Below are positions 1,846-64,000 of a DNA stretch of 64,000 nucleotides, one piece after another. Numbering within the stretch: position 1 is the first letter of the stretch; each line of letters starts with the position of its first letter. Source of the stretch: Caballeronia concitans (GTDB taxonomy: Bacteria; Pseudomonadota; Gammaproteobacteria; Burkholderiales; Burkholderiaceae); the NCBI RefSeq assembly GCF_001544615.1, contig NZ_FCNV02000002.1, forward strand, positions 186,001 to 250,000, written 5' to 3'. Below the pieces are notes generated by a model that ran no database searches, was not told where the DNA came from, and was given only the letters and a program-made list of their open reading frames with translations. A program made the position numbers and the translations under genes.

Positions 1846-1870
1846 TCAAGCCAAGACCGAAAATCCGCTC

Positions 1871-2743: not shown

Positions 2744-2744
2744 C

Positions 2745-3929: not shown

Positions 3930-3964
3930 AACCACACTGACGATAATCACACGGAGACACGACC

Positions 3965-18227: not shown

Positions 18228-18371
18228 GTTTTCAAAACGATGCGCCGAGGAACTCGCAGCTTAACGCGGCAATTCCCCGTTCGAAACCGCTATTTCATAT
18301 GTGAAATCGGCAAACGCCTGGCGCACTCCGGCATCTCCTTCTAAATCAATCACTTAAGCGGTGCATCGCAG

Positions 18372-18388
18372 TTGGCAAAGAAATTGCA
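18372..18388 (+). promoter_or_regulatory. Sigma-54 (-24/-12) promoter of the prp operon
   Basis: TTGGCAAAGAAATTGCA fits the -24/-12 consensus TGGCA-N6-TTGC, with GG and GC one helical turn apart. It predicts transcription starting near 18399, about 22 nt before the GTG of prpB. The divergent gene encodes the sigma-54 activator PrpR, so the assignment is well supported by context. Confidence 0.88.
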
Positions 18389-18420
18389 GTAAATGGCGCC
18401 TTCTTGCGGAGACATCCAAC

Positions 18421-19317
18421 GTGAACACACCTACCTCACCCGTACAAAGCGCCGGCGCGCGTTTCCGCGCGGCCGTCCGCGACGAATCCCCCTTGCAGGT
18501 CGTGGGCGCCATCACGGCGTATGCGGCGAAGATGGCCGAAGCGGTCGGCTTCAAGGCGCTCTATCTGTCGGGCGGCGGCGTGGCCGCCAACTCGCTCGGC
18601 ATGCCGGACCTCGGCATCAGCACGATGGAAGACGTGCTGATCGACGCGCGCCGCATCACGGACGCGTCGTCATTGCCGCTGATGGTCGATATCGATACCG
18701 GCTGGGGCGGCGCGTTCAACATCGCGCGCACCATCCGCTCGTTCATCAAGGCGGGCGTGGCGGCCGTGCATATCGAAGACCAGGTGGGCCAGAAGCGCTG
18801 CGGGCATCGTCCGGGCAAGGAAGTCGTGTCGACGGGCGAGATGGTCGATCGCGTGAAAGCGGCTGTCGATGCGCGCACCGACGAGTCGTTCGTTATCATG
18901 GCGCGCACCGACGCGGCCGCCGCGGAAGGCATCGATGCCGCGATCGAGCGGGCCGTCGCGTACGTCGAAGCCGGCGCGGATATGATCTTCCCCGAAGCGA
19001 TGAAAACGCTCGACGACTATCGGCGCTTCAAGGCGGCGGTCGGCGTGCCGATTCTCGCGAACCTGACCGAGTTCGGTTCGACGCCCTTCTTCACGGTCGA
19101 CGAACTGAAGGACGCCAATGTCGATATCGCGCTGTACTGCTGCGGCGCGTATCGCGCGATGAACGCGGCGGCGCTGAATTTCTACGAGACCGTGCGGCGC
19201 GACGGCACGCAGAAAGCCGCCGTCGAAACCATGCAGACGCGCGCGGATCTGTACAAGTATCTCGGCTATCACGCATACGAAGACAAGCTGGATCAGTTGT
19301 TCTCGGCACAGAAATAA
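18421..19317 (+). CDS. prpB: 2-methylisocitrate lyase PrpB
   Basis: 298 residues from a GTG at 18421 with GGAG 9 nt upstream; there is no suitable ATG, and earlier starts lie upstream of the predicted transcription start. It cleaves 2-methylisocitrate to pyruvate and succinate in the methylcitrate cycle. The ICL/PEP-mutase barrel shows [16 protein letters not shown] (Mg2+ site), the catalytic QKRCGH loop and IMARTDAAA. It is first in the prpB-prpC-acnD-prpF set. Confidence 0.95.
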
Positions 19318-19338
19318 CCCGCATTCAGGAGACGAACG

Positions 19339-20505
19339 ATGAGCGAAGCAGACAACAGCACCCCAACGAGCGGCTTCAAGCCGAAGAAGTCGGTCGCGCT
19401 TTCCGGTGTGACCGCCGGCAACACGGCCTTGTGCACGGTCGGCCGCACCGGCAACGACCTGCACTATCGCGGCTACGACATTCTCGATCTCGCCACCACG
19501 AGCGAATTCGAGGAAATCGCGTATCTGCTCGTGCACGGCAAGCTGCCGAGCGCCGCCGAACTCGCGGCCTACAAGACCAAGCTGAAGGCGCTGCGCGGCC
19601 TGCCCGCGAACCTGAAGGCCGCGCTGGAATGGATTCCCGCTTCCGCGCATCCGATGGACGTGATGCGCACCGGCGTCTCCGTGCTGGGCACCATCCTGCC
19701 CGAGAAGGACGATCACAACGTGCCCGGCGCGAAGGACATCGCCGACAAGCTGATGGCCTCGCTCGGCTCGATGCTGCTCTACTGGTATCACTACTCGCAT
19801 AACGGCCGCCGCATCGAAGTCGAAACCGACGACGATTCCATCGGCGGGCACTTCCTGCATCTCCTGCACGGCGTCGAGCCGCCGAAATCGTGGGTCGATG
19901 CAATGCACGTCTCGCTCAACCTCTACGCGGAGCACGAGTTCAACGCATCGACCTTCACGGCGCGCGTGATCGCGGGCACGGGTTCGGACATGTACTCGTC
20001 GATCACCGGCGCGATCGGCGCGCTGCGCGGCCCGAAGCACGGCGGCGCCAACGAAGTCGCGTTCGAGATTCAGTCGCGCTATCAGAACGCCGACGAAGCG
20101 GAAGCCGACATCAAGCGCCGCGTCGAAAACAAGGAAGTGGTGATCGGCTTCGGCCATCCGGTCTATACGATCTCGGACCCGCGCAACAAGGTCATCAAGG
20201 AAGTCGCGAAGACGCTCTCGAAGGAAGCCGGCGACACGAAGCTCTTCGACATCGCCGAGCGGCTCGAATCGGTGATGTGGGACGCGAAGAAGATGTTCCC
20301 GAATCTGGACTGGTTCAGCGCCGTGTCGTATCACATGATGGGCGTGCCCACGGCGATGTTCACGCCGCTGTTCGTGATCTCGCGCACCTCGGGCTGGAGT
20401 GCGCATATCATCGAGCAGCGCATCGACAACAAGATCATTCGGCCGAGCGCGAACTACACCGGCCCGGAGAATCTCTCCTTCGTTCCGCTTGCCGAGCGCA
20501 CGTAA
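19339..20505 (+). CDS. prpC: 2-methylcitrate synthase PrpC
   Basis: 388 residues of the citrate synthase family, short bacterial PrpC type. It condenses propionyl-CoA with oxaloacetate to 2-methylcitrate. Catalytic residues are visible: His in [10 protein letters not shown], His in GFGHPVYT and Asp in [27 protein letters not shown] at the N-terminus is characteristic of PrpC. It starts 21 bp after prpB. A 165-bp gap with two hairpins separates it from acnD. Confidence 0.95.
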
Positions 20506-20522
20506 CAGGCGCATGTTGCACC

Positions 20523-20579
20523 TTCGCGCGAGAAGCCGGACGCGCGCGAAGTCCCTCCTCGCCGCCGCATCAGGCGGCG
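20523..20579 (+). promoter_or_regulatory. Two tandem hairpins between prpC and acnD
   Basis: TTCGCGCG (20523-20530) pairs perfectly with CGCGCGAA (20543-20550). CGCCGCC (20560-20566) pairs with GGCGGCG (20573-20579) across a 6-nt loop. Neither is followed by a T run, so they are not classical terminators. They more likely act on mRNA processing or stability inside the operon. Confidence 0.5.
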
Positions 20580-20670
20580 GGGCCGTTCGATGAAGCAAGG
20601 CGTTTCGCCCCACGATACCTTTGAGCATGGCGCCTTCGCGCACAGACCATGCGATGAGCGAGATACGGCC

Positions 20671-23268
20671 ATGAATACTGCCAACCGCAAACCTCTTCCC
20701 GGCACGCACTGCGACTTCTTCGACGCCCGCGCGGCCGTCGATGCCATCCGCCCCGGCGCTTACGACGCCCTGCCCTACACCTCGCGCGTGCTCGCGGAGA
20801 ATCTGGTTCGCCGCTGCGATCCGGCGCTGCTCGAAGCATCGCTGCTGCAACTGATCGAGCGCAAGACCGAGCGCGATTTCCCGTGGTATCCGACGCGCGT
20901 CGTGTGTCACGACATCCTCGGCCAGACGGCGCTCGTGGACCTCGCGGGCCTGCGCGACGCCATCGCGAGCCAGGGCGGCGATCCGGCCAAGGTGAATCCG
21001 GTGGTGCCGGTTCAACTGATCGTCGATCACTCGCTCGCCGTCGAATGCGGCGGCTTCGACCCGGATGCCTTTGCGAAGAATCGCGCGATCGAGGACCGGC
21101 GCAACGAAGACCGTTTCGATTTCATCAACTGGACGAAGAAGGCGTTCAAGAACGTCGACGTGATTCCGCCGGGCAACGGCATCATGCATCAGATCAATCT
21201 GGAGCGGATGTCGCCGGTCATCCATGCGATCGACGGCGTCGCCTTTCCCGATACCCTCGTCGGCACCGACAGCCACACGCCGCACGTCGATGCCCTCGGC
21301 GTGATCGCGATCGGCGTCGGCGGCCTAGAGGCGGAGAACGTGATGCTCGGCCGCGCATCGTGGATGCGTCTGCCCGATATCGTCGGCGTCGAGCTGACGG
21401 GCAAGCGCCAGCCGGGCATCACGGCCACCGACATCGTGCTCGCCCTGACCGAATTCCTGCGCAAGGAAAAAGTGGTCGGCGCCTATCTCGAGTTCTATGG
21501 CGAAGGCGCATCGAGCCTCACCCTCGGCGACCGCGCGACGATCTCGAACATGGCGCCGGAATACGGCGCGACGGCCGCGATGTTCTACATCGACGAACAG
21601 ACGATTGCGTACCTGCGGCTCACCGGCCGCGACGATGCGCAGATCCGCCTCGTCGAAACCTATGCGAAAACCGCCGGCCTGTGGGCCGATTCGCTCGCTA
21701 ACGCGCAGTACGAGCGCGTGCTGCGCTTCGATCTGTCGAGCGTCGAGCGCAACATGGCAGGGCCGTCGAATCCGCACAAGCGGCTGCCGACGTCGAAGCT
21801 CGCGGAACGCGGCATCGCGCATGAATGGGTCGAGACGCCGGGCAAGATGCCCGAGGGCGCGGTCATCATTGCGGCAATCACCAGTTGCACCAACACCAGC
21901 AATCCGCGCAACGTGATCGCGGCCGCGCTGCTCGCCCGCAATGCGAACGCGCGCGGGCTTGCGCGCAAGCCGTGGGTCAAGTCGTCGCTCGCGCCGGGAT
22001 CGAAGGCAGTCGAGTTGTACCTCGAAGAAGCCGGTCTGCTCGGCGAACTCGAACGGCTTGGCTTCGGCATCGTCGCGTTCGCGTGCACGACCTGCAACGG
22101 CATGTCGGGCGCGCTGGACCCGGTCATTCAGCAGGAGATCGTCGAGCGCGAGCTTTATACGACCGCCGTGCTCTCCGGCAACCGCAACTTCGACGGCCGC
22201 ATTCATCCGTACGCGAAGCAGGCGTTTTTGGCGTCGCCGCCGCTCGTCGTCGCGTATGCGATCGCGGGCACCATTCACTTCGACATCGAGCAGGACTCGC
22301 TCGGCACGGACGCGAACGGCCAGCCCGTTTATCTCAAGGACATCTGGCCCGACGATGCGGAGATCGACGCCATCGTCGCGCAAAGCGTGAAGCCCGAACA
22401 CTTCCGCCGCGTGTACGAGCCGATGTTCGCCGTCACCGAGGCGCGCGACGAAGCCATCAGCCCGGTCTACGACTGGCGCGGCGAAAGCACCTACATTCGC
22501 CGTCCGCCGTACTGGGAAGGCGCGCTCGCGGGCAAGCGCACGCTTTCGGGCATGCGCGCGCTGGCCGTGCTCGGCGACAACATCACGACCGATCACCTGT
22601 CGCCGTCGAACGCCATTCTCGCGGACAGCGCGGCCGGCGAATATCTGACGAAGATGGGCTTGCCGGAAGAAGACTTCAATTCCTACGCGACGCATCGCGG
22701 CGATCATTTGACGGCGCAGCGCGCGACCTTCGCGAATCCGACGCTCGTCAACGAAATGGCTGTGGTCGACGGCACGGTGAAGAAAGGCTCGCTCGCGCGC
22801 ATCGAACCGGAAGGCAAGGTCACGCGCATGTGGGAAGCCATCGAAACCTACATGGAACGCAAGCAGCCGCTCATCATCGTGGCGGGCGCGGACTACGGAC
22901 AAGGTTCGTCGCGCGACTGGGCCGCGAAAGGCGTGCGGCTGGCGGGCGTCGAGGCGATCGTCGCCGAAGGCTTCGAGCGCATCCATCGGACGAACCTGAT
23001 CGGCATGGGCGTCCTGCCGCTCGAATTCAAGGCGGGCGTGAATCGCCTGACGCTCGGCATCGACGGCACCGAAACCTTCGACGTGACCGGCGAACGCAAG
23101 CCGCGCGCGGACCTGACGCTCGTGATCCGGCGCAAGAACGGCGAGTGCGTCGAAGTGCCGGTCACCTGCCGTCTCGATACGGCCGAGGAAGTGTCGATCT
23201 ACGAAGCGGGCGGCGTGCTGCAGCGCTTCGCACAGGACTTTCTGGAATCGTCGAAGACCGCCGCGTAA
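20671..23268 (+). CDS. acnD: Fe/S-dependent 2-methylcitrate dehydratase AcnD
   Basis: 865 residues, an aconitase-family hydro-lyase that dehydrates 2-methylcitrate and works with PrpF in place of PrpD. [4Fe-4S] ligand cysteines sit in SCTNTSNP and CTTCNGMSG, and the substrate-binding QGSSRDW loop is in the swivelling C-terminal domain. The frame opens 27 codons earlier, but MNTANRKPLPGTHCDFFDA from the ATG at 20671 is the family-like start. It forms the third step of the prp operon; oxygen sensitivity is expected from the cluster. Confidence 0.94.
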   Translation: MNTANRKPLPGTHCDFFDARAAVDAIRPGAYDALPYTSRVLAENLVRRCDPALLEASLLQLIERKTERDFPWYPTRVVCHDILGQTALVDLAGLRDAIASQGGDPAKVNPVVPVQLIVDHSLAVECGGFDPDAFAKNRAIEDRRNEDRFDFINWTKKAFKNVDVIPPGNGIMHQINLERMSPVIHAIDGVAFPDTLVGTDSHTPHVDALGVIAIGVGGLEAENVMLGRASWMRLPDIVGVELTGKRQPGITATDIVLALTEFLRKEKVVGAYLEFYGEGASSLTLGDRATISNMAPEYGATAAMFYIDEQTIAYLRLTGRDDAQIRLVETYAKTAGLWADSLANAQYERVLRFDLSSVERNMAGPSNPHKRLPTSKLAERGIAHEWVETPGKMPEGAVIIAAITSCTNTSNPRNVIAAALLARNANARGLARKPWVKSSLAPGSKAVELYLEEAGLLGELERLGFGIVAFACTTCNGMSGALDPVIQQEIVERELYTTAVLSGNRNFDGRIHPYAKQAFLASPPLVVAYAIAGTIHFDIEQDSLGTDANGQPVYLKDIWPDDAEIDAIVAQSVKPEHFRRVYEPMFAVTEARDEAISPVYDWRGESTYIRRPPYWEGALAGKRTLSGMRALAVLGDNITTDHLSPSNAILADSAAGEYLTKMGLPEEDFNSYATHRGDHLTAQRATFANPTLVNEMAVVDGTVKKGSLARIEPEGKVTRMWEAIETYMERKQPLIIVAGADYGQGSSRDWAAKGVRLAGVEAIVAEGFERIHRTNLIGMGVLPLEFKAGVNRLTLGIDGTETFDVTGERKPRADLTLVIRRKNGECVEVPVTCRLDTAEEVSIYEAGGVLQRFAQDFLESSKTAA

Positions 23269-23283
23269 GACTACGGCCTTCGC

Positions 23284-23308
23284 GGATGCGGCGCCGCACG
23301 CCGCATCC
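23284..23308 (+). promoter_or_regulatory. Perfect 10-bp hairpin between acnD and prpF
   Basis: GGATGCGGCG (23284-23293) and CGCCGCATCC (23299-23308) form a perfect stem with a 5-nt loop in the 66-bp gap before prpF. A pyrimidine run TCTCTCTTTC follows but is not a pure T tract. It may be a partial terminator or a 3' stabilising element. Confidence 0.55.
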
Positions 23309-23334
23309 TCTCTCTTTCGAAACAGGACTCAAGC

Positions 23335-24528
23335 ATGGCCTACGCACCCCAGATCCGAATCGCCGCGACCTACATGCGCGGCGGCACCAGCAAGGGCGTT
23401 TTCTTCCGGCTCGACGACCTGCCCGAAGCCGCGCGCGTGCCGGGCGCCGCGCGCGACGCGCTGTTCCTGCGCGTGATCGGCAGCCCGGACCCGTACGGCA
23501 AGCAGATCGACGGCATGGGCGGCGCAACGTCGAGCACGAGCAAGACGGTGATCGTTTCGCGCAGCACGCGTCCCGGTCACGATGTCGATTATCTGTTCGG
23601 ACAGGTGTCGATCGACAAGCCGTTCGTCGACTGGAGCGGCAACTGCGGCAATCTGTCGGCGGCGGTCGGTCCGTTCGCGATCGCGAACGGCCTCATCGAT
23701 CCCGAGCGCGTGCCGGACGACGGCATCGCGGTCGTGCGCGTCTGGCAGGCGAATATCGGCAAGACCATCATCGCGCATGTGCCGATGACGCGCGGCGCGG
23801 TGCAGGAAACCGGCGACTTCGAACTGGACGGCGTGACGTTTCCCGCCGCCGAAGTGCAGCTCGAATTCCTCGATCCGGCCGCCGATGAAGAAGGCGCGGG
23901 CGGCGCGATGTTCCCGACCGGCCAGCTCGTCGACGATCTGGAGGTGCCCGGCATCGGCACGCTGAAGGCGACCATGATCAACGCGGGCATTCCGACGATC
24001 TTCGTCAACGCCGATGCGATCGGCTACACCGGCACCGAGCTTCAGGACGCGATCAACGGCGACGACGCGGCGCTGCGGCGCTTCGAGACCATTCGCGCGT
24101 ACGGCGCGCTGCGCATGGGGCTGATCGCGAGCCTCGATGACATCGCGAAGCGCCAGCACACGCCGAAAGTCGCCTTCGTCGCACCGCCGGCCGCGTATGT
24201 CGCGTCGAGCGGAAAGCGTATCGGTGCGGAAGACGTCGACGTGCTGGTGCGCGCGATGTCGATGGGCAAGCTGCATCACGCGATGATGGGCACCGCCGCC
24301 GTCGCGATCGGCACGGCAGCGGCGATTCCGGGCACGCTCGTCAATCTCGCGGCGGGCGGCGGCAAGCTCCGCGAAGTGCGATTCGGGCATCCGTCGGGCA
24401 CGCTTCGCGTGGGTGCGGAAGCGGTCGAAGCGGACGGCGAATGGAAGGTCACGAAAGCCATCATGAGCCGCAGTGCGCGCGTGCTGATGGAGGGGAAGGT
24501 GCGGGTGCCGGTGGGTTCCGAAGCGTGA
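23335..24528 (+). CDS. prpF: 2-methylaconitate isomerase PrpF
   Basis: 397 residues of the PrpF family (two-lobed diaminopimelate-epimerase-like fold). It isomerises the 2-methylaconitate made by AcnD so that aconitase can hydrate it. Characteristic segments are ATYMRGGTSKGVFFR at the N-terminus, DGMGGATSSTSKT, DWSGNCGNLSAAVGPFAI with the conserved cysteine, and MSMGKLHHAMMGTAAVA. Start ATG at 23335. It is the last gene of the prp operon. Confidence 0.95.
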   Translation: MAYAPQIRIAATYMRGGTSKGVFFRLDDLPEAARVPGAARDALFLRVIGSPDPYGKQIDGMGGATSSTSKTVIVSRSTRPGHDVDYLFGQVSIDKPFVDWSGNCGNLSAAVGPFAIANGLIDPERVPDDGIAVVRVWQANIGKTIIAHVPMTRGAVQETGDFELDGVTFPAAEVQLEFLDPAADEEGAGGAMFPTGQLVDDLEVPGIGTLKATMINAGIPTIFVNADAIGYTGTELQDAINGDDAALRRFETIRAYGALRMGLIASLDDIAKRQHTPKVAFVAPPAAYVASSGKRIGAEDVDVLVRAMSMGKLHHAMMGTAAVAIGTAAAIPGTLVNLAAGGGKLREVRFGHPSGTLRVGAEAVEADGEWKVTKAIMSRSARVLMEGKVRVPVGSEA

Positions 24529-42200: not shown

Positions 42201-43052
42201 TCACTCGTAGCGTCGCGCTTCGTCCATCAGTTGCGGCGTGCCGATGATCGCGTTGATCTCGTCGAAATCGGCCATGCGCGCTTTCCAGGGTGCGGTCGTG
42301 CCGTGCTCGCGCAAGCTGTTGTAGAAGCCTTGCAGCGTATGCGCAACCGCGCGCGCCGCGCCGCCCGGGAAGATCACGATGCGAAAGCCCCGCGCCGACA
42401 GCGCCTCGGCGCTCTGAACCGGCGTCTTGCCGCCTTCGACCATATTGGCGAGCAACGGCACGCGCGAGGCGAAACGCGCGCACGCGACATCCATCTGCTC
42501 GGCGGAGCGCAGCGCTTCGATGAACAGCGCATCGACGCCCGTTTCCAGATAACGTTCGGCGCGATCGAGCGCGGCGTCGAGACCTTCCACCGCGAGCGCA
42601 TCCGTACGGGCCAGAATGAGCGTCTCGCGGCGCTCACGCGCATCGAGCGCGGCGCGCAGCTTGCCGCACATCTCCGCGACCGGGATCACGCTCTTGCCGT
42701 CCAGATGACCGCAGCGCTTCGGGAAGGTCTGGTCTTCCAGCTGGATCATCGCCGCGCCCGCGCGTTCGAAGCCGCGCACGGTGCGTTTGACGTTCAGCGC
42801 ATTGCCGAAGCCCGTATCGGCATCGACGATGACCGGCAGCGTCACGCGCTCCGTGATGCGCGCGAGCGTATCCGCGACTTCGGTGAACGTGGTCAGGCCG
42901 ACATCGGAGCGGCCCAGCTTCGTATAGGCGATCGAAGCGCCCGACAGATACAGCGCGTCGAACCCGGCCTGCTCGGCGATGAGCGCGGAAAGCGCATCGT
43001 AGACGCCGGGCGCGAGCACGGTCTTGCGCGCGAGTTGTTCAGCGAGTGTCAT
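42201..43052 (-). CDS. ICL/PEP-mutase-superfamily lyase (2,3-dimethylmalate/methylisocitrate lyase-like)
   Basis: 283 residues from the ATG at 43052. The ICL/PEPM barrel is complete: LAPGVYDALSALIAEQAGF, PVIVDADTGFGNALNV (Mg2+ site), LEDQTFPKRCGH with the catalytic cysteine of C-C lyases, and ILARTDALAVEG. It is not PrpB, which is at 18421. The KRCGH loop points to lyase activity on a 2-hydroxy or 2-methyl di/tricarboxylate, releasing pyruvate or glyoxylate. It overlaps the LeuD-like gene by 14 nt, last in a five-gene operon. Confidence 0.88.
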   Translation of the reverse strand: MTLAEQLARKTVLAPGVYDALSALIAEQAGFDALYLSGASIAYTKLGRSDVGLTTFTEVADTLARITERVTLPVIVDADTGFGNALNVKRTVRGFERAGAAMIQLEDQTFPKRCGHLDGKSVIPVAEMCGKLRAALDARERRETLILARTDALAVEGLDAALDRAERYLETGVDALFIEALRSAEQMDVACARFASRVPLLANMVEGGKTPVQSAEALSARGFRIVIFPGGAARAVAHTLQGFYNSLREHGTTAPWKARMADFDEINAIIGTPQLMDEARRYE

Positions 43053-43560
43053 GAGAGGACGGCTCCTTGACGCTGTAGCGCTGCTGCAGCAGCTTGAAAA
43101 GCCCGCCTGCTTCGGCCATGTCGAGCAGGAATGCAGGCAAAGGATCGCAGACGAGCGTGACGCCGCTCGCGCGCGTGATCCGCCCGCGCAGCGGATCGAT
43201 GGCGATGCGCTCGCCCTCTTCCATCGTTTCGGCCTGTGCACACGTGAGCAGCACGAGCCCCACGTTGAACGCGTTGCGGAAAAACAGGCCGCTGAACGCG
43301 GGCGCGATCACCGCGCGCACGCCGAGTTGCACGAGCGCGGCGGGCGCCTGCTCGCGCGAAGAGCCGATACCGAAGTTCGGCCCGGCAACGATGACATCGC
43401 CGGGATTCACGTTCGCGGCGAAGTCCGGGCGCTGCCGTTGCAGGCAATGCCGCGCGATTTCGTCGATGCCGAATTTCATGTACGCGCCGGGCGCCAGCGC
43501 ATCCGTATCGATATCCGCGCCGACGCGCCACACGCGATGCGTTTCCGTGCTCGCGTTCAT
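43039..43560 (-). CDS. LeuD-like aconitase-family small subunit
   Basis: 173 residues from the ATG at 43560. The swivelling domain of two-subunit hydro-lyases: VGADIDTDALAPGAYMK, VIVAGPNFGIGSSREQAPAA and IAPAFSGLFFRNAFNVGL. It pairs with the LeuC-like subunit whose stop overlaps its start. Genomic context (dioxygenase, CoA-transferase, ICL-type lyase, IclR regulator) argues against leucine synthesis and for a catabolic hydratase/isomerase, in the way DmdA/DmdB work with dimethylmalate lyase in nicotinate-fermenting Eubacterium barkeri. The exact substrate is unknown. Confidence 0.88.
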   Translation of the reverse strand: MNASTETHRVWRVGADIDTDALAPGAYMKFGIDEIARHCLQRQRPDFAANVNPGDVIVAGPNFGIGSSREQAPAALVQLGVRAVIAPAFSGLFFRNAFNVGLVLLTCAQAETMEEGERIAIDPLRGRITRASGVTLVCDPLPAFLLDMAEAGGLFKLLQQRYSVKEPSSHDTR

Positions 43561-44837
43561 GCGATCACCTCGCGCGGATCGGTGATGCGCCCGCGCAATG
43601 CGGACGCGGCCACCGTGAACGGCGAGCCGAGATAGACCTGCGCCGTTTCCGCGCCCATGCGGCCCTGGAAGTTGCGCGCGGTGCTGGAAATCACGGTGCT
43701 GCCTTCCGGAATCTGTCCGCCGTAGCCGGAGCACGCACCGCACGACGTGGCGAGCACTTGCGCGCCGGCGTCTTCGAAAATCGACATGACGCCTTCGCGG
43801 CGTGCGACTTCGCGGTCGCGCACGCTCGCGGGCGCGACGACCAGCTGCACGCCTTGCGCCACGCGCCGATGCTTAAGCACGCTGGCCGCCGCGCGCAGAT
43901 CGTCGAGCTTCGCGCCCGTGCATGCGCCGATGTACGCCACCTGCACGGCGACGTCGCCGAAGGTATCGGCCGCGCGCGTGTTCGCGGGACTGTGCGGCGC
44001 GGCCACTTGCGGCGCGAGGGCGGCGGCATCGAAGTCCTCGGTTTCGGCTGGCGCATCGGCATCGCTTCGCCAGTGCGCGATGTCGAATTCGTCGGTCACG
44101 CCTGCTGCGCGCAGATAGTCGAGCGTCACCGCATCCGGCGCGATCAGCCCCGTCTGCGCGCCCATCTCCGCGCTCATGTTCGAGAGCGTCATGCGCTCCT
44201 GCATCGACAATGCCGCGACGGCTTCACCGCAGAACTCGACCGCCTGATAGCGCCCGCCGTTCATGCCGAAGCGGCCGATCATGTGCAGCATCATGTCCTT
44301 TGCCGTGACGCCGCGCGCGAGCCGCCCGCGCCACCGCATGCGCAGCGTCTCGGGCACCTTCACCCAGATCTGCCCCGATACCGCGACGCCCAGCATCTCC
44401 GTGCTGCCGATGCCGAACATGTATGCGCCGAACGCGCCGCCCGTCGGCGAATGCGAATCGCCGCCGACGCAGAACATGCCCGGCCGCACGTGTCCGTGCT
44501 CGGGCAGCACGACATGGCAGATGCCGACGCTGTCGTACACGTTGGGCAAGCGCTGCGCCGCCGCCCAGTCGCGCGCGATGCGCACGATGCGGCGCGATTC
44601 GTCATCGGCTTCGGGCACGTAGTGATCGATCACGAGCACGATCTTCGACGCGTCCCAAAGCGGCGCACCGAGCGCTTCGAGCATCGGCTTCAGGCGGCGC
44701 GGGCCGCTCGAATCGTGGAACATCGCGAGATCGACATCGCAGGTGACGATCTCGCCCACCGCGACCTCGGCACGCCCGCACGCCTTCGCGATGAGCTTTT
44801 GCGCGAGCGTCTGAGGCTTGGGCACGGACGTGTCCAT
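43557..44837 (-). CDS. LeuC-like aconitase-family large subunit
   Basis: 426 residues from the ATG at 44837. [4Fe-4S] ligand cysteines are in AYIGACTGAK and LATSCGACSGYGG. Other landmarks: VIDHYVPEAD, FCVGGDSHSPTGGAFGAYMF, and a C-terminal STARNFQGRMG. Together with the LeuD-like subunit it should form an oxygen-sensitive hydro-lyase that shifts a hydroxyl on a branched di/tricarboxylate. At 426 residues it is of the short, archaeal/DmdA-like type rather than the ~470-residue leucine-biosynthetic LeuC of proteobacteria. It is 8 bp after the dioxygenase gene. Confidence 0.88.
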   Translation of the reverse strand: MDTSVPKPQTLAQKLIAKACGRAEVAVGEIVTCDVDLAMFHDSSGPRRLKPMLEALGAPLWDASKIVLVIDHYVPEADDESRRIVRIARDWAAAQRLPNVYDSVGICHVVLPEHGHVRPGMFCVGGDSHSPTGGAFGAYMFGIGSTEMLGVAVSGQIWVKVPETLRMRWRGRLARGVTAKDMMLHMIGRFGMNGGRYQAVEFCGEAVAALSMQERMTLSNMSAEMGAQTGLIAPDAVTLDYLRAAGVTDEFDIAHWRSDADAPAETEDFDAAALAPQVAAPHSPANTRAADTFGDVAVQVAYIGACTGAKLDDLRAAASVLKHRRVAQGVQLVVAPASVRDREVARREGVMSIFEDAGAQVLATSCGACSGYGGQIPEGSTVISSTARNFQGRMGAETAQVYLGSPFTVAASALRGRITDPREVIA

Positions 44838-44845
44838 GATCGCGC

Positions 44846-45931
44846 TCAATCGACCATCTGCGCGACCTGCCCTGCTTCGAGCAGCAGGCGGTCGTGCGTG
44901 GACGGCAGCTCCGCGAACGGGCGGCGGTATTGCGCCCACATGCGCAAGTCCTCGGGCTTATGGAACACCTGCGCGTCCGGCATAGCGGGCCAGTCGGACA
45001 CCGTGAGCCAAAGGCGCAGCAGATGACGGCGCTCGTGGAGCGGCTCGGCATCGACGTAATCGGTGCGGCCGTGCACGAGCACGCGATTGTTCAGGAACTG
45101 GATGTCGCCGTCGCGAAAGCCCATGTCGAGATAAAACTCGGGCGATGCCGCGATCTTGCGCACCGTATAGAGCGCCTCGGATTCGAGCTCGCTGAACGGG
45201 ACCTGCCCGCTCTTCTCGGCCAGACGCGCGTAGCCCGTCGGCAGGTAGCAGATCACTTCGCCCGCGCTGTCGGTGAAGAACGGCACCTTGTGCTCGCTGA
45301 ACGTGCGCGTCGCGCGGCGGCCGTCTTCGTCGGTGCGCTTGCACCAGAGGCCTTCGCGCAGCGCTTCGAGCAGATCCGGGCGCGTGCGCAGCAATTCGTT
45401 ATGCACGGCGAGCGCGCTGGAGATGCGGCTTTCGCCGCCGGAGATCGCGGTGCGCAGGCACATCAGGCCGATGATGTCGCACGAATCCGTGTGCATCAGT
45501 TGACCGCCGCCTTTGCGATAGCCGCGCGATTTCGGCTCGTAGTCGCTCACGTTGACCACGTGGCCGAGCACGTCGCCGAGATACGACTGCGTCACCGGCT
45601 TGCTGATGTACGAGCCCAGGCCGAAGTAGATGCGCGTCATGTCGTCGTCGGAGTAGCGCTCGCGCGGCAGGCCGCGCAACATCAGGAAGCCGCGTCCGTT
45701 GCGCAGGAACGCGGGCAGCGCGCGCATGAAGCGGCCCATCGTGTCGAGCGGAAATGTCTCCGGGCTGATGTCCGGAAAGTCGATGTCGCCGAGCGAATGC
45801 AGATGCGCGAGCGCGGCGTCGATCTCGGCGATCTCGGCTTCGCTCAGGACGTGCAGGCCTTCGCGCGTCCAGTCGAGTTCGGGGCCTTTCCAGGCGGCGG
45901 GGGATTCAATCGGTTGTCCTACGCGATTCAT
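44846..45931 (-). CDS. TauD/TfdA-family Fe(II)/2-oxoglutarate dioxygenase
   Basis: 361 residues. The facial triad is visible as GGQLMHTDSCD (His-x-Asp) and NNRVLVHGRTDY (distal His), with the 2-oxoglutarate-binding Arg in RRHLLRLWL. It should hydroxylate or oxidatively cleave a carboxylate using O2 and 2OG. It lies in the operon between the CoA-transferase (24 bp upstream) and the LeuC-like subunit, so hydroxylating the substrate before the hydro-lyase and lyase steps is a reasonable inference. Confidence 0.88.
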   Translation of the reverse strand: MNRVGQPIESPAAWKGPELDWTREGLHVLSEAEIAEIDAALAHLHSLGDIDFPDISPETFPLDTMGRFMRALPAFLRNGRGFLMLRGLPRERYSDDDMTRIYFGLGSYISKPVTQSYLGDVLGHVVNVSDYEPKSRGYRKGGGQLMHTDSCDIIGLMCLRTAISGGESRISSALAVHNELLRTRPDLLEALREGLWCKRTDEDGRRATRTFSEHKVPFFTDSAGEVICYLPTGYARLAEKSGQVPFSELESEALYTVRKIAASPEFYLDMGFRDGDIQFLNNRVLVHGRTDYVDAEPLHERRHLLRLWLTVSDWPAMPDAQVFHKPEDLRMWAQYRRPFAELPSTHDRLLLEAGQVAQMVD

Positions 45932-45955
45932 CTCATGCTCCTTGATGGAAATGGT

Positions 45956-47212
45956 TCATGCGCGCGCGGCATGTGCGGCTTCATGCGCGGCATCGTGAAC
46001 GGGGACGACCACGGCGCCGCAGCCGATGAGTTCGTCGAGCGCGCATTCGCCGATGAGCGGCGCGAGGACCTCGCGCGAATGCTCGCCCTTTTTCGGCGCG
46101 GGACGCGTGAAGCCGCCCGGCGTCGCGGAAAGACGCGCGACCACGTTATGCACGGCAAGATGGCCGAGCTCGTCGTCTTCGATTTCGACGAGCGCTTCGC
46201 GGCCCGTGACGTAGGCATCGTCGGCAAGATCGCTCGCGTCGAGCACGGGACCCGCCGTGATGTCGGCGCGTTCGAAGAAAGCAAGGTTCTCCGCGAGCGT
46301 GCGCGCACGAATGAAGCCGCCGACCACCTGATCGACTTCCTCCACATGCTTGAGACGCGCGCTGTTGGTCGCGTAGCGCGGATCGGTGTTCATGTCGTCG
46401 CGGCCGATCGCGGCGAGAAGGCGCTGCGCCATGCTCTGCGTCGACGTCGAAATGCAAAGCCACTTGCGGTCCGCGGTTTCATACGTGTTGCGCGGACACG
46501 TGGTGCTCGAGCGGCTGCCGGTGCGCGGCTTCACGTCGCCCGTGAGCTGGAAGTTCGCGACCTGCGGGCCGAGAATCGAGATCATCGGATCGAACAGCGA
46601 CAGGTCGATCACCTGCCCGTTGCCGCCGTTCACGCGCGTTTCCCAGAGCGCGACCATCGCGGCATGCGCGCCGTAGAGGCCCGCGGTCATGTCGCCGAGA
46701 AACATCGGCGGCAAGACGGGCTCGCGATCGCCGAATCCGTTCATCGCGGCGAAGCCCGAATAGCCCTCGACCAGCGTGCCGAAACCCGGACGCTCGCGAT
46801 AAGGCCCCGTCTGCCCCCAGCCCGACACGCGCACGATGACGAGCTTCGGATTGGCCGCGTGCAGCGCCTGCGGTGAAAGCCCCATCTTTTCGAGCGTGCC
46901 GGGCCTGAAGCTTTCGACGAGCAGGTCGGCATCCCGCGCGAGGCTCGCGATCAGCTTCGCGCCCGCCTCGTGATGAAAGTCGATGCACACGCTGCGCTTG
47001 TTGCGCGCATACGCTTTCCAGAACACCTCCGCGCCCCGCGTGCGAAAGGCGCGCAACGTGTCGCCTTTCAAGGGTTCGACCTTGACGACATCCGCGCCGA
47101 AATCCGCGAGCTGCAAGGTCAGCATGTTGCCCGCGACGAGACGCGACAGGTCCACTACCTTCACGCCGCGTAGCGGCCCGATGTGTGATGCGTCGAAGGC
47201 TTTGCGATGCAT
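45956..47212 (-). CDS. CaiB/BaiF CoA-transferase (paralogue of the one at 2745)
   Basis: 418 residues. It shares long blocks with the protein at 2745: SRLVAGNMLTLQLADFGA, ARNKRSVCIDF, LVESFRPGTLEKMG, ENLAFFERADITAGPVLDAS. Here the catalytic position is the usual Asp (GQVIDLSLFDPM). The C-terminal ~30 residues with several His and Ala are an extension not present in the other copy. First gene of the minus-strand operon; a 19-bp palindrome lies 70 bp upstream of its start. It probably activates or releases the pathway acid as a CoA ester. Confidence 0.88.
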   Translation of the reverse strand: MHRKAFDASHIGPLRGVKVVDLSRLVAGNMLTLQLADFGADVVKVEPLKGDTLRAFRTRGAEVFWKAYARNKRSVCIDFHHEAGAKLIASLARDADLLVESFRPGTLEKMGLSPQALHAANPKLVIVRVSGWGQTGPYRERPGFGTLVEGYSGFAAMNGFGDREPVLPPMFLGDMTAGLYGAHAAMVALWETRVNGGNGQVIDLSLFDPMISILGPQVANFQLTGDVKPRTGSRSSTTCPRNTYETADRKWLCISTSTQSMAQRLLAAIGRDDMNTDPRYATNSARLKHVEEVDQVVGGFIRARTLAENLAFFERADITAGPVLDASDLADDAYVTGREALVEIEDDELGHLAVHNVVARLSATPGGFTRPAPKKGEHSREVLAPLIGECALDELIGCGAVVVPVHDAAHEAAHAARA

Positions 47213-47280
47213 GTTCAGATCCTCCCGGCTGCGCGGTCGTTGCTTGCCGAAAACGTCGGCGTGATTTCATTATCTTTGAA

Positions 47281-47299
47281 AATAGACATCATGTCTATT
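47281..47299. promoter_or_regulatory. 19-bp palindromic operator, CoA-transferase/iclR intergenic region
   Basis: AATAGACATCATGTCTATT is a perfect palindrome with 9-bp arms around one central base. It lies between the divergent CoA-transferase operon and iclR genes. A partner site with one intact arm occurs at 49437-49455 before the MFS gene. IclR proteins typically bind such palindromes, so it is likely the operator of the adjacent regulator. Confidence 0.82.
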
Positions 47300-47404
47300 C
47301 TTTCCCTTCGCGATGAGAAGGCTGCCGCTCTTGCGGGCCGCATGCCTTACGCGGCAAGATACGCGGCAACGCTCGGACAACGGCGCAATCAACCGGAAAC
47401 AGCA

Positions 47405-48139
47405 ATGGCAACCGAAGAACCCGGCGTCGCGGCAGTCAACCGCGCGCTCTCGATCCTCAAGGCGTTCGAGGACAGCATCGACGGCATGACGCTCACCGAC
47501 CTCACCAACGCAACAGGCCTCTACCACAGCACGATCCTGCGTCTGTGCGAATCGCTCGAGCACTTCGGTTATCTCAAGCGTCTGGAAGACGGCCGCTACA
47601 TGCTCGGGCCGATGCTGTTTCATCTCGGCATGATTTATCAAAGCTCGTTCCGTCTGCGCGACTACGCGTTGCCGGTGCTGCGCACCCTCGTCAAGGAAAC
47701 GGGCGAGACCGCCGCGGTCTACGTGCGCGAGGGCGACGAGCGTCTCTGTCTCTATCGCGTGGAATGGCAGCGCTCGGTGCGCATGCATGTGCGCGAAGGC
47801 GAACGTCTGACGCTCGAAGCCGGCGCGGCGGGTCACGTGCTGCGCGCGTTTTCCGAGGGCGCGGTCAAGGGGCATCTGAAAAAGGTGCGCGAAAACGGCT
47901 ATTGCGTGTCGCTCGGCGAGCGCGAACCGGAAAGCGCCGCGATCGCCGTGCCGGTGTTCCGCACGGGACAGGAACTCGTCTGCGCCATTTCCCTCGGCGT
48001 GCCGCGCTACCGCTTCGATCGCAAGTCCTTCGACATCTATCTGCCGAAGGTGATGGAAGCGGGCGCGGCGCTCACGCAGGCACTGGGCGGCGACGTGTCG
48101 ATTTTCCAGCCGCCCTACGCGCATTTCAGCGGCGTTTGA
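47405..48139 (+). CDS. IclR-family transcription regulator
   Basis: 244 residues from the ATG at 47405, where the family's AAVNRALSILKAFEDS begins; an ATG at 47291 lies inside the palindromic operator and is less likely. The winged helix (LTDLTNATGLYHSTILRLCE) is followed by an effector domain (LVKETGETAAVYVREGDERL, EAGAAGHVLRAF, ESAAIAVPVF). It is divergent from the catabolic operon and convergent with the MFS gene. Two matching palindromes in front of these units suggest that it controls both. Confidence 0.92.
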   Translation: MATEEPGVAAVNRALSILKAFEDSIDGMTLTDLTNATGLYHSTILRLCESLEHFGYLKRLEDGRYMLGPMLFHLGMIYQSSFRLRDYALPVLRTLVKETGETAAVYVREGDERLCLYRVEWQRSVRMHVREGERLTLEAGAAGHVLRAFSEGAVKGHLKKVRENGYCVSLGEREPESAAIAVPVFRTGQELVCAISLGVPRYRFDRKSFDIYLPKVMEAGAALTQALGGDVSIFQPPYAHFSGV

Positions 48140-48158
48140 GCGGGTCCCCGGACGCGCG

Positions 48159-49394
48159 TCAGACGTTCTGCTGAATCGCGGGACGCGCGCCGTCCGCTTC
48201 CTGCTCGGTGCCGTTCACGCGCGATTGCAGCGCCGCGAAGCAGCCCGCGCCGATCACGAGCGCCGAAATCATGAACAGGAAGCCGTTGTTGTACGAGCCG
48301 CTCGCCTTGACGAGATAACCCACGCCGAGCGGCGCGAGCAGCCCGCCGATCTGCCCGCCCGTATTGATGACGCCCGCGAACACGCCGCGCGCGCCCTGCG
48401 GCGCCAGTTGGGCGACAAGGCCCGCATACGGCGAGAGGCAGCCGTACAGCAGAAACGCCGCCGCCGACAGGCCGATCACGCATGCGACGATGTTCTCGGC
48501 GGTGTACGCGAGATAGAGCGCGAGGCCGGTGCAGACATAGCCCACCGCGACCAGCGTCGGCCGTCTGCGATGCAGCATTCCGCTGCCGAGCCAGCCGAAC
48601 ACGACGATGCCGAGAAAGCCGAACAGATAAGGCACCGACGCCGCGACGCCCAGCGCTTTCAGATCGATATGGCGCTGATTGGCGAGATAGGACGGAATCC
48701 AGCCGAGAAAGCCCCAGTAGCCGACGCTGAACGTCATATAGCCGAAGAACAGCAGCCAAGTGCTCTTGCGCCCCGCGAACAGACGCCATTGCTCCGCGCG
48801 GCTTGCCTGGTCGTGCGTGGCGCGTTCCTTCGCTTCGATCGCCTTGCCCGGAATGATGAAGAAGATCAGCAGCGCGACGATCACGCCCGGAATCGCGAAG
48901 ACATAGAACACGTTGCGCCAGTCGCCGTGCATCAGCAGGCTCGTGACGACGGGCGCGACGACCGCCGGACCGATCGCGAGCGCGGAGAGCCAGACGGCAT
49001 GCGCCTTCGCCGCGTCCTTGTGGCTGAAGTTGTCGGCGACGGCCTTGTAGACGGCCGCGTTGCACGACCCTTCGGCCAGGCCGAAGCAGAAGCGCGCCGC
49101 GATGAGCACGGCCATCGAGGTCGCGAGTCCCGTCATGCCGGTGAAAATCGAAAACAAAACCGGCGCCACGACCAGCAGCGCCTTGGTGCCGAACCGGTCC
49201 GCGAAGAAGCCGCCGGGCAACTGCATCAACGCATAGCCGAGGGCGAACGCGGCGAGCAGGAAGCCGAACTGCGCGGCATCTAGGTGCAGGGCTTTCATCA
49301 TCGTCGGACCGGCGACGGAAATACTCACCCGATCCAGATAGTTGACGAATTGTAGAAGCCACGTCAGCACCAGCAACTGGTATCTCAAACTCAT
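48159..49394 (-). CDS. MFS transporter, anion:cation symporter (ACS) type
   Basis: 411 residues from the ATG at 49394 with AGGAG just upstream. Twelve membrane spans. The first-helix motif NYLDRVSISVAGPTM and GGFFADRFGTK are typical of ACS-family symporters for carboxylates and related anions. It ends near the iclR stop (convergent). The control region carries a second copy of the operator found before the catabolic operon, so this is probably the importer of that pathway's substrate. Confidence 0.9.
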   Translation of the reverse strand: MSLRYQLLVLTWLLQFVNYLDRVSISVAGPTMMKALHLDAAQFGFLLAAFALGYALMQLPGGFFADRFGTKALLVVAPVLFSIFTGMTGLATSMAVLIAARFCFGLAEGSCNAAVYKAVADNFSHKDAAKAHAVWLSALAIGPAVVAPVVTSLLMHGDWRNVFYVFAIPGVIVALLIFFIIPGKAIEAKERATHDQASRAEQWRLFAGRKSTWLLFFGYMTFSVGYWGFLGWIPSYLANQRHIDLKALGVAASVPYLFGFLGIVVFGWLGSGMLHRRRPTLVAVGYVCTGLALYLAYTAENIVACVIGLSAAAFLLYGCLSPYAGLVAQLAPQGARGVFAGVINTGGQIGGLLAPLGVGYLVKASGSYNNGFLFMISALVIGAGCFAALQSRVNGTEQEADGARPAIQQNV

Positions 49395-49436: not shown

Positions 49437-49455
49437 AATAGAAACTATGTCTATT
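49437..49455. promoter_or_regulatory. Second copy of the 19-bp operator, before the MFS gene
   Basis: AATAGAAACTATGTCTATT keeps the full ATGTCTATT arm of the 47281-47299 palindrome and most of the other arm (AATAGA). It sits 43-61 bp upstream of the MFS start codon. Confidence 0.78.
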
Positions 49456-62889: not shown

Positions 62890-63777
62890 CTACCCCTGCT
62901 TCGCCTGAACGCCGGCAAATCGCTTCTCGACATCGACCGCTTGATCCAGCCCGACGAAGCGGTTGTATTCCTCGAAAGGCGTCAGCCTGTCGGCGATGGC
63001 ATCGGTCGAGCCTTCGCGCATGAACACGGTCATCATGTCCTTCACGGCCTTGTGCATCGCAAGCATCGGCTCGATGGGACTCAACGTGTACGCAAAGCCC
63101 ATTTCATAGGCCTCTTTCATCGACACGTACGGGCTTTTTCCGGTGCGCGCCTGATTGAAGAGAATCGGCTTGCCGAGCGGCTTCAGACGCCGCGTCAGTT
63201 CGCGCATACGCTCGATGCTTTCGGGCGCATCGGCATAGAGACCGTCCGCGCCCGCCTCCGCATACGCTTCGAGCCGCGCGATGGCATCGTCGATGCCCGT
63301 CACCGCAATCGCATCGGTGCGCGCGACGATAAAGAAATCCGGATCGCGGCGCGCATCGATCATCGCGCGCAGCTTCAACACCATCTCTTCCTTCGAGACG
63401 AGCTGTTTACCCGCGTAATGGCCGCACTTCTTCGGCAACGCCTGATCCTCGAGATGCAGCACGGATGCGCCCGCCTCTTCCCAAAGACGCATCGTGCGCT
63501 GCACATCGAGGATGCCGCCGTAGCCCGTATCGGCGTCGGCGAAAACCGGCACCGACGTCACGCGGCAGATGCGGCGGATATGCTCGAACATCTCCGTCTG
63601 CGAGAGCACGCCGACGTCCGGCTGTCCCGCGACGACGCCCGATGCGACGAAGCCCGACACATAGATGGCCTTCGCGCCGGCCTGCTCGGCGAGCATCGCG
63701 GTGATGGCGTCATGCGCACCCATGCAGACGAACGGCCCTTCGTTGAACAACTCGCGAAAGCGTGCGGAACGGGTCAA
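62890..63777 (-). CDS. ICL/PEP-mutase-superfamily lyase (second non-PrpB copy)
   Basis: 295 residues from a TTG at 63777, chosen because GGAG lies 7 nt upstream and family sequence starts at RSARFRELF. Barrel motifs: MGAHDAITAMLAEQAGAKAI, PVFADADTGYGGILDV (Mg2+), LEDQALPKKCGH with the lyase cysteine, and IVARTDAIAVTG. It follows a LeuD-like gene by 16 bp, the same pairing seen at 42201-43560. It probably cleaves a branched 2-hydroxy acid; substrate unknown. Confidence 0.86.
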   Translation of the reverse strand: MTRSARFRELFNEGPFVCMGAHDAITAMLAEQAGAKAIYVSGFVASGVVAGQPDVGVLSQTEMFEHIRRICRVTSVPVFADADTGYGGILDVQRTMRLWEEAGASVLHLEDQALPKKCGHYAGKQLVSKEEMVLKLRAMIDARRDPDFFIVARTDAIAVTGIDDAIARLEAYAEAGADGLYADAPESIERMRELTRRLKPLGKPILFNQARTGKSPYVSMKEAYEMGFAYTLSPIEPMLAMHKAVKDMMTVFMREGSTDAIADRLTPFEEYNRFVGLDQAVDVEKRFAGVQAKQG

Positions 63778-63793
63778 GATGAGTCTCCGGATA

Positions 63794-64000
63794 TCAGTCA
63801 AGGTAAGCCCAGCCGCGCGCCTTTCGATCGCTCGCGCGAAACTGCGCGATGCGCTCGCTGAGCCTGCGTGTCTGGTCGATCTCGTCGAGTCCTTCGAGCA
63901 GCGCCTCGCGCGGCGCTTCGTCGAAGTCGAAGGGAATCGCATCGAGTCCCGGCACGCGGATTTCGAGCGCGCGCAGATCGACTTCGATGCTCGCGCCATC
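63794..64000 (-). CDS. LeuD-like aconitase-family small subunit, partial (3' end only)
   Basis: 68 codons are visible, running in from beyond the right edge to the stop at 63794-63796. The sequence DAIPFDFDEAPREALLEGLD then EIDQTRRLSERIAQFRASDR matches the C-terminal end of 3-isopropylmalate dehydratase small subunits, where a LLEGLDDI helix is diagnostic. It lies directly upstream of the ICL/PEP-mutase-type lyase, so a LeuC-like partner is expected just outside the window. Confidence 0.8.
   Translation of the reverse strand, partial: DGASIEVDLRALEIRVPGLDAIPFDFDEAPREALLEGLDEIDQTRRLSERIAQFRASDRKARGWAYLD

Follow-up and report, generated by a model that had tools for sequence, protein, structure and literature searches.

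Gene content and layout of the locus

We analyzed a 64,000-nucleotide stretch of the Caballeronia concitans genome (hereafter, the window; G000:C12:186001-250000 within a 6.17 Mb genome) and characterized a five-gene operon with its regulator and importer at window positions 42201-49394 (Table 1). The operon encodes a class III (CaiB-type) coenzyme A (CoA)-transferase, a TauD-type dioxygenase, the two subunits of a LeuC/LeuD-like hydro-lyase and a lyase of the isocitrate lyase (ICL)/phosphoenolpyruvate (PEP)-mutase superfamily. In it, two older gene sets, each conserved on its own, have been fused: module A, consisting of the CoA-transferase and dioxygenase genes, and module B, consisting of the LeuC, LeuD and lyase genes. 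In this soil or plant bacterium, the probable role of the operon is to cleave organic acids with a methyl branch, perhaps breakdown pieces of chlorophyll or heme, yielding pyruvate and another acid.

Table 1. Features of the operon and its flanking genes, in window coordinates
Feature	Position	Strand	Description
ICL/PEP-mutase-type C-C lyase	42201..43052	-	283 residues, KRCGH loop, last operon gene; Pfam PF13714
LeuD-like small subunit	43039..43560	-	173 residues, loop YMKF; TIGR02087 LeuD/DmdB family above cut-off
LeuC-like large subunit	43557..44837	-	426 residues, short archaeal type, three Fe-S cysteines
TauD-type Fe(II)/2-oxoglutarate dioxygenase	44846..45931	-	361 residues; Pfam TauD
Class III (CaiB-type) CoA-transferase	45956..47212	-	418 residues, first operon gene; PF02515
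Palindrome AATAGACAT-G-ATGTCTATT, probable IclR operator	47281..47299		Between iclR and the CoA-transferase gene
IclR-family regulator	47405..48139	+	244 residues, start possibly further upstream; PF01614 and PF09339
Major facilitator superfamily (MFS) importer	48159..49394	-	Pfam MFS_1; best NCBIfam model D-galactonate transporter 2A0114, below cut-off
Second operator-like palindrome, imperfect	49437..49455		Ahead of the MFS gene

An initial annotation, made from the sequence letters alone, had described this gene set as a minus-strand operon flanked by iclR and the importer gene, and our coordinates and domain assignments agree with it. All seven reading frames are intact, and their Pfam hits (PEP_mutase/ICL, Aconitase_C, Aconitase, TauD, CoA_transf_3, IclR and MFS_1) each exceed the cut-off. 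The LeuD and lyase frames overlap by 14 bases and the LeuC and LeuD frames by 4 bases, an operon-like arrangement. Since the same gene order is kept in five loci, the arrangement is not a matter of chance. None of the five enzymes has an NCBIfam equivalog match above cut-off; subfamily models alone pass. No hydratase or CitE was found among the operon genes by gene calls and Pfam. We take the importer to be a member of the ACS family. The genes are real, the set conserved and co-regulation likely.

Distribution of the two modules and the operator

Relatives of the dioxygenase were collected from 58 genomes of the genus (15 with a match at E value 1e-30 or better, including five whose copy is 78-100%), 399 order genomes (27 at 1e-50 or better, with matches of at least 70% confined to the window's own genome and G381), plasmids (15 records, with one close match, PREW-6R) and a contig collection (25 loci). 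We compared 28 module A loci: the window, 25 named loci, L029 and L030. The CoA-transferase gene precedes the dioxygenase gene in 25 of the 28, the three exceptions being loci from alphaproteobacterial metagenome-assembled genomes (MAGs). An iclR gene is present in 17 loci and an MFS importer of the window type in seven; 18 have Bug-type binding proteins, recognized by eye, which in 14 of them lie no more than two genes away. CitE-like genes lie within two genes of the pair in seven loci (L029, L030, L059, L060, L063, L064 and L067), and the LeuC-LeuD-lyase set stands behind the dioxygenase in five (the window, L056, L057, L058 and L030), so that L030 carries CitE and LeuC-LeuD-lyase together. 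L059 and L029 combine CitE with a more distant ICL-type lyase (in L029 a short frame only) and a long-type LeuCD further off.

Across the 58 genus genomes, a lyase gene lies within 5 kb of 10 of the 19 dioxygenase-family matches, with 0.08 expected. In three loci, L112-L114, a dioxygenase paralog has a 69-71% lyase as its immediate partner, and the stretch fetched contains no LeuCD. The CoA-transferase-linked dioxygenases form a clade with 100/100 support and the lyase-linked paralogs fall outside it, so the dioxygenase-lyase pairing arose more than once. A Rhodospirillales MAG (L078) has a 58% lyase about 6.4 kb from its dioxygenase ortholog. At L116 (G051:C28:5000-20000), distant paralogs of the window set occur together: LeuC, an ICL-type lyase, a dioxygenase, a CoA-transferase, two CitE-like and two GntR-like genes.

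A palindrome of 19-21 bases, AAATAGACATNATGTCTATTT, lies no more than 260 bases upstream of the CoA-transferase gene. It is present in full, with perfect 8-base arms, in 13 of the 17 iclR-bearing loci; L056 and L064 have the 13-base core only, the L058 copy is imperfect, and no copy was found at L072. None was found in the eight CoA-transferase loci without iclR. The window palindromes gave four strand matches (two sites) versus 0.00 expected in shuffles, and a third site is absent from the whole 6.17 Mb genome at up to two mismatches. This conservation with iclR, together with the restriction to two sites in the genome, supports the earlier suggestion that the operon is under an IclR-type regulator. 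From the shared operator-like sites, the MFS gene and the five-gene operon probably form one small regulon under an IclR-type switch; the MFS gene has an operator-like site of its own and need not belong to the minus-strand transcript.

Short-type LeuC occurs in 20 of 399 order genomes (E value 1e-100) and in 11 of 398 genomes of a phylum sample (1e-140), the two samples overlapping. Leaving aside the window's own genome, wider stretches were read in 16 of 19 order genomes, in five further phylum genomes, and in G015 and G034, which were found by the lyase. We counted 21 LeuC loci, leaving out the five fused loci, L138 (LeuC lost) and L176 (LeuC missed by the gene caller). LeuD is present in 19 of these 21 non-fused loci and a lyase of the window type (55% or more) in 13; the dioxygenase and the window-type CoA-transferase are present in none. 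The three remaining order genomes, read in short flanks, have the lyase in two cases (L126, L129) and glutaryl-CoA dehydrogenase (GcdH) in one (L135). The 21 include two alphaproteobacterial-type loci of another class, L173 and L174. Some loci are near relatives (L147/L181 and L173/L174) and contig ends truncate L177 and L180, so these counts are not independent events.

Outside the fused loci, module B in the loci read lies beside uptake systems and hydrolase-like genes, not leu genes. Twelve of the 21 loci have a ring-opening hydrolase-like gene, which is a caprolactamase-like HyuAB in six, allantoinase/dihydropyrimidinase-like in three and PuuE-like in three. A TcuA/flavocytochrome-like flavin adenine dinucleotide (FAD) enzyme is present in eight loci, an isochorismatase-like gene in seven and GcdH in four. 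The ring-opening proteins all score below the NCBIfam cut-offs (HyuAB 290 and 517 bits against the caprolactamase subunits, PuuE 125-144 bits, AllB 231 bits). The dihydropyrimidinase and hydantoinase families have imidase activity, and from context we take the PuuE-type genes to be imidases as well; nothing relevant to polysaccharide deacetylase-like cyclic imide hydrolases was among the literature matches listed. The GcdH of L147 matches the solved glutaryl-CoA dehydrogenase 3gnc at 628 bits and is 73% like the GcdH of L139. The gene lies 0.2 kb from LeuC, divergently, in genus g65 (L134/L147, L135 and L136/L181), and 6.6 kb (L178) and 8.2 kb (L139) from the LeuC start. In L139 it adjoins a succinate--glutarate CoA-transferase-like gene, and that locus could simply be a housekeeping one.

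These distributions separate what stood from what fell in the pathway first proposed for the locus, a single linear route in which an imported branched acid is hydroxylated, isomerised and cleaved. The IclR-controlled operon stands, as does the partnership of the LeuCD-like hydro-lyase with the ICL-type lyase, given the lyase in 13 of 21 other LeuC loci and a lyase clade with 98/97 support. The one linear route is not supported in that form: in the loci read, LeuCD-lyase occurs mostly without the dioxygenase, the dioxygenase and CoA-transferase occur mostly without LeuCD-lyase, and the two modules have their own distributions. The direct pairing of dioxygenase paralogs with a lyase in L112-L114 counters it further.

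Features of the five enzymes

The LeuC-like protein scores above cut-off with the subfamily models PRK00402 (518 bits) and hacA_fam (412 bits), its best match in the Protein Data Bank (PDB) is the isopropylmalate/citramalate isomerase 4nqy, and its Fe-S cysteines C306, C366 and C369 are invariant in 10 aligned rows. LeuD passes TIGR02087 (LEUD_arch, the LeuD/DmdB family) at 154.7 bits, with a cut-off of 108.95. Both subunits miss the leucine-type equivalog models (score/cut-off in bits: leuC 235/560, LEU2 355/611, leuD 55/116, leud 114/246). The fold family, Fe-S cysteines and subunit lengths resemble those of archaeal LeuCD/homoaconitase; the LeuD loop reads YMKF, in contrast to the YLRT and YLVY of isopropylmalate isomerase and homoaconitase (IPMI/HACN) small subunits. 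Homoaconitases have Arg at the variable position of this loop and isopropylmalate isomerases a hydrophobic residue. Among 25 relatives, the residue is Lys in 21, His in two, Arg in one and Gln in one. The Lys may be a hint, and only a hint, of an extra carboxylate on the substrate.

A profile search placed PF00330 at six sites in the genome. By gene order and by eye, these are a leuC-leuD-leuB operon (G000:C27:44721-47933), an aconitase on C27, a second leuCDB-like set (C12:302343-305478), the AcnD of a prp cluster in the window, a second LeuC-LeuD-lyase set, and the LeuC of the operon. With a separate leuC-leuD-leuB present, the window LeuC is neither linked to a leu operon nor the sole isomerase, and the window LeuCD need not serve as the genome's only isopropylmalate isomerase. 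The reading of these subunits as catabolic had been offered on the understanding that they are not the genome's only such isomerase, and that is what we find. The second LeuC-LeuD-lyase operon, of the long LeuC type, runs from window position 62890 past the window's right end (window 62890-64000; G000:C12:248890-251814; lyase at window 62890-63750) and adjoins an NMT1-type ATP-binding cassette transporter, identified by eye. Its LeuC scores above the cut-off of the leuC equivalog model, even though a leuCDB operon is present elsewhere.

The lyase has KRCGH at residues 112-116, with K112, C114, G115 and H116 invariant in nine of nine aligned rows, and thereby carries the K-[KR]-C-G-H loop with catalytic Cys of the lyase branch of the ICL/PEP-mutase superfamily. 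With the LeuC cysteines, this confirms the catalytic residues noted as intact in the initial annotation. Models for PrpB were missed (TIGR02317, 290 bits versus a cut-off of 354; NF008455, 247 versus 353). PDB chain 3fa3, named 2,3-dimethylmalate lyase, matches at 5e-46, more weakly than PrpB chains do; in the accessible text of PMC9804861 and PMC8471276, the name "dimethylmalate lyase" is used for a gene of the methylcitrate cluster or cycle. A phylogeny against PrpB had been recommended as a check. In a tree of 30 rows, built without the later-fetched L173, L174, L178 and L182, the window gene falls in a 19-row clade supported at 98/97 that also holds the short-type-LeuC-linked lyases in the tree, the three 69-71% lyases of L112-L114 and the L078 lyase; PrpB, the second window lyase and other paralogs fall outside. 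Y43, R48, R69, G130, Leu145, R197 and M204 are fixed in the compared clade rows, rare outside, and not common to the PrpB of the same window. R48 lies two residues ahead of a conserved Asp, presumably a Mg-site residue; it is not universal, being Gly in L173 and L174. That PrpB, from the prp cluster, is encoded at 18421-19317, so the operon lyase is a different enzyme. By eye, window positions 16281-24528 hold a prpR-prpB-prpC-acnD-prpF methylcitrate cluster.

In the dioxygenase, H147, D149, H287, R302 and R306 are invariant across 26 aligned rows, and Pfam, alignment and structure place the HxD...H triad and the 2-oxoglutarate-binding Arg on a TauD fold, as in the TauD/TfdA family. Its nearest solved relative in both fold and sequence is TtnM (PDB 7n7v, about 30% identity), a tautomycetin hydroxylase from the dialkylmaleic anhydride pathway of Streptomyces secondary metabolism; the second relative is FrbJ. 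Phosphonate chemistry, considered for the likeness to FrbJ, was rejected on two grounds: the KRCGH cysteine is retained in the lyase, and the operon showed no phosphonate genes. The CoA-transferase scores 359 bits with CoA_transf_3 and belongs to class III, with D174, which we take to be the catalytic Asp, invariant in 11 rows. Its nearest NCBIfam model is succinate--glutarate CoA-transferase NF052585, missed at 232 bits versus a cut-off of 750; this cut-off is strict, since the gcdH-linked CoA-transferase of G015 also falls short (544 bits). Elsewhere in the window (623-6834), a cluster in one direction holds a CaiB-like C-terminal fragment and a TRAP-type transporter, both recognized by eye, two CitE-like genes and a CaiB-type CoA-transferase. 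The latter is 56% identical to the operon CoA-transferase.

Proposed pathway, candidate substrates and alternatives

The reactions and substrates proposed here are what we infer from the observed gene content, residues, modules with their partners and operator-like sites. We consider it somewhat probable that the locus is a catabolic operon of two joined modules under one IclR-type switch, converting a substituted maleate to a malate and on to pyruvate and a carboxylate. LeuCD would hydrate a substituted maleate, bearing a methyl group and probably a further carboxylate, to a 2-methyl-3-substituted malate, which the ICL-type lyase would cut into pyruvate and a carboxylic acid. The TauD-type enzyme may hydroxylate either a saturated relative taken up from outside or the same acid at its side chain, while converting 2-oxoglutarate to succinate, and the CaiB-type enzyme could use succinyl-CoA to esterify the hydroxy acid, or else the carboxylate released, with CoA. 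The dioxygenase and CoA-transferase would thus provide a second way in or out. Both routes would end on substituted malates, cleaved either as the free acid by the ICL-type lyase or as the CoA ester by a CitE-type lyase, as encoded near module A in some relatives. The common thread would be a 2-hydroxy dicarboxylate, made by LeuCD from water and a double bond or by the dioxygenase at a saturated carbon, and then cleaved by a lyase.

By analogy, the proposed chemistry is of a known kind, with new partners and probably a new substrate. In the nicotinate fermentation of Eubacterium barkeri, the LeuCD-type DmdAB is followed by Dml, of the ICL/PEP-mutase type, yielding pyruvate and a carboxylate. 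The comparison, made by description rather than by sequence, is a fair chemical analogy: the pairing of hydro-lyase and lyase is alike, whereas the locus adds the dioxygenase, CoA-transferase and IclR and lacks the nicotinate enzymes. At the end of the methylcitrate cycle, AcnD and PrpF make a methylated isocitrate-type acid from which PrpB releases pyruvate; the window hydro-lyase is of another type, its lyase scores below the PrpB cut-offs and belongs to another clade, and the prp cluster is separate. Itaconate and methylsuccinate degradation (Ict, Ich, Ccl, Mcd, MmgE) likewise uses a CoA-transferase and a CitE-type lyase on C5 branched acids, but the window operon lacks Ich, Mcd and CitE and has a dioxygenase instead. 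In the literature searched, mostly without subscription journals, we did not find the exact gene set described, in line with the earlier statement that no such pathway was known, and publications on dimethylmaleate hydratase, dimethylmalate lyase, TtnM and FrbJ within the same scope held nothing on the window operon.

The partners of module B (ring-opening hydrolase-like, half-amidase-like and TcuA-like FAD genes and a few GcdH) suggest that an unsaturated acid is hydrated, not that a hydroxylated one is isomerised. Genes resembling cyclic imide/amide hydrolases, from three unrelated families, and half-amidase-like genes suggest a maleimide as the substrate, and GcdH suggests, more weakly, glutarate as a product. 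Hematinic acid, the C8 methyl-carboxyethyl-maleimide formed by oxidation of chlorophyll or heme, is to our knowledge the only widespread natural maleimide that would give pyruvate and glutarate by hydration and cleavage. We therefore raise, as a tentative and rather doubtful idea, that module B is an undescribed hematinic acid pathway and the window operon a free-acid version with a TtnM-like hydroxylase and CoA-transferase added. On this route, an imide hydrolase of the PuuE, hydantoinase or caprolactamase type and an isochorismatase-type half-amidase would open the ring to methyl-homoaconitate; LeuCD would form methyl-homoisocitrate, and the lyase would release pyruvate (C3) and glutarate (C5), the latter passing on to CoA-transferase and GcdH. 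According to the accessible parts of the sources, hematinic acid occurs in leaves at levels like those of dipyrrole products, where simpler maleimides were not detected (PMC7318184), and a bacterial heme-cleaving protein sets it free (PMC11442138); propionate and a C5 compound are the building blocks of the C8 dialkylmaleic anhydride of tautomycetin (PMC8793217, PMC6560455). The lines from the module B partners and from tautomycetin/TtnM agree; neither is proof.

Several observations weigh against the two-module catabolic reading and its maleimide extension. The operon's LeuCD-lyase set is missing behind the dioxygenase in 23 of the 28 module A loci, L059 and L029 included, so module A functions without it, and nine of the 19 dioxygenase-family matches in the genus have no nearby lyase. 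On the side of module B, eight of the 21 loci lack a window-type lyase within the DNA read, L177 and L180 being truncated by a contig edge, nine lack a ring-opening gene in the stretch read, and GcdH lies directly beside LeuC in one genus only. The window operon itself is without the ring-opening, half-amidase, FAD and GcdH genes seen near module B elsewhere; the best PuuE-type relative in the window genome is only 32%, the HyuAB, dihydropyrimidinase and FAD types not having been searched there. A homoaconitase Arg-to-Lys variant is reportedly active toward isopropylmalate, which weakens the argument from the loop Lys. The scheme offers no one obvious place for a CoA-transferase beside a free-acid lyase.

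Module A could also be a pathway in its own right, a reading that we regard as possible, if on the unlikely side. A 2-methylsuccinate-type acid would be hydroxylated to a citramalate-type acid, activated with CoA and cut by a CitE-type, (S)-citramalyl-CoA-like lyase encoded elsewhere, and LeuCD-lyase would be an accessory by which the wrong regioisomer is recycled, from citramalate via 3-methylmalate to glyoxylate and propionate. The CitE-like genes close to the pair in seven of 28 loci fit this, as does the 56% CoA-transferase paralog accompanied by two CitE-like genes in the same window (985-3929); however, 21 of the 28 loci have no CitE that near, and the CitE-like proteins checked score below the RipC/Ccl cut-off. 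In two Bordetella genomes (L061, L080), an MmgE/PrpD gene and a GntR-like regulator gene stand directly before the CoA-transferase/dioxygenase pair, and the former possibly encodes an isomerase for the same substrate. The accessible part of PMC12290011 describes methylsuccinate use by Betaproteobacteria and one MmgE/PrpD protein as a methylsuccinate isomerase, but the L061 protein reaches no more than 37% with other MmgE proteins, its own orthologs excepted, and we set this identity aside. The genome carrying L080 (G458, 6.2 Mb) gave 33 matches to the MmgE/PrpD query versus one to nine in five other genomes.

Glutarate use, with the CoA-transferase making glutaryl-CoA and the dioxygenase 2-hydroxyglutarate (as CsiD/GlaH does) so as to dispose of glutarate released by the lyase, appears unlikely to us. 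Biosynthesis is highly improbable: the lyase would run in the joining direction, LeuCD would dehydrate and the TtnM-like dioxygenase would hydroxylate, giving a dialkylmaleate-type product. TtnM is the closest solved relative of the dioxygenase and makes part of a pathway whose C8 anhydride comes from propionate and a C5 compound (accessible parts of PMC8793217 and PMC6560455), but at about 30% identity and with no polyketide genes seen nearby; moreover, the importer-type MFS and the IclR regulator share operator-like sites with the operon, and module B elsewhere keeps uptake systems and hydrolases. We give equally little credence to two enzymes that share no pathway, a spare leucine-type isomerase and a promiscuous lyase of oxaloacetate or methylisocitrate, a reading that the likeness to IPMI/HACN and PrpB might suggest. 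It is already disfavoured by the separate leuC-leuD-leuB operon, by prpB-prpC-acnD-prpF in the same window (both identified by eye) and by the joint occurrence of LeuCD and the window lyase type in 13 of 21 other stretches.

Annotation readily labels LeuCD-like and PrpB-like genes as leucine or propionate enzymes, and genes such as these may often be misnamed. Here, recognizable LeuCD and lyase subfamilies, found together in 13 of the 21 non-fused loci, point to a catabolic module that travels, in two or more classes of Pseudomonadota, with genes resembling cyclic imide/amide hydrolases, and their gene context yields a short, testable list of substrates. The fusion is a clean case of two modules built into an operon with one operator. 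Should hematinic acid or another tetrapyrrole maleimide be the substrate, the module would bear on the microbial fate of the last pieces of chlorophyll and heme, and tetrapyrrole carbon would have an end like that of the methylcitrate cycle.

A remnant of the fused operon was found at L138 (G034:C5:424000-443000), where LeuD and the lyase only are left (90 and 94% identical), cut off by unrelated DNA. A conserved set of LysR, CitE, CaiB, amidohydrolase and TIGR00366 transporter genes occurs near the fused operon in L056 (13792-18108) and L057, beside the remnant in L138, and on another contig in the window genome (G000:C21:41223-46551). The best model for its amidohydrolase is 4-sulfomuconolactone hydrolase, below cut-off.

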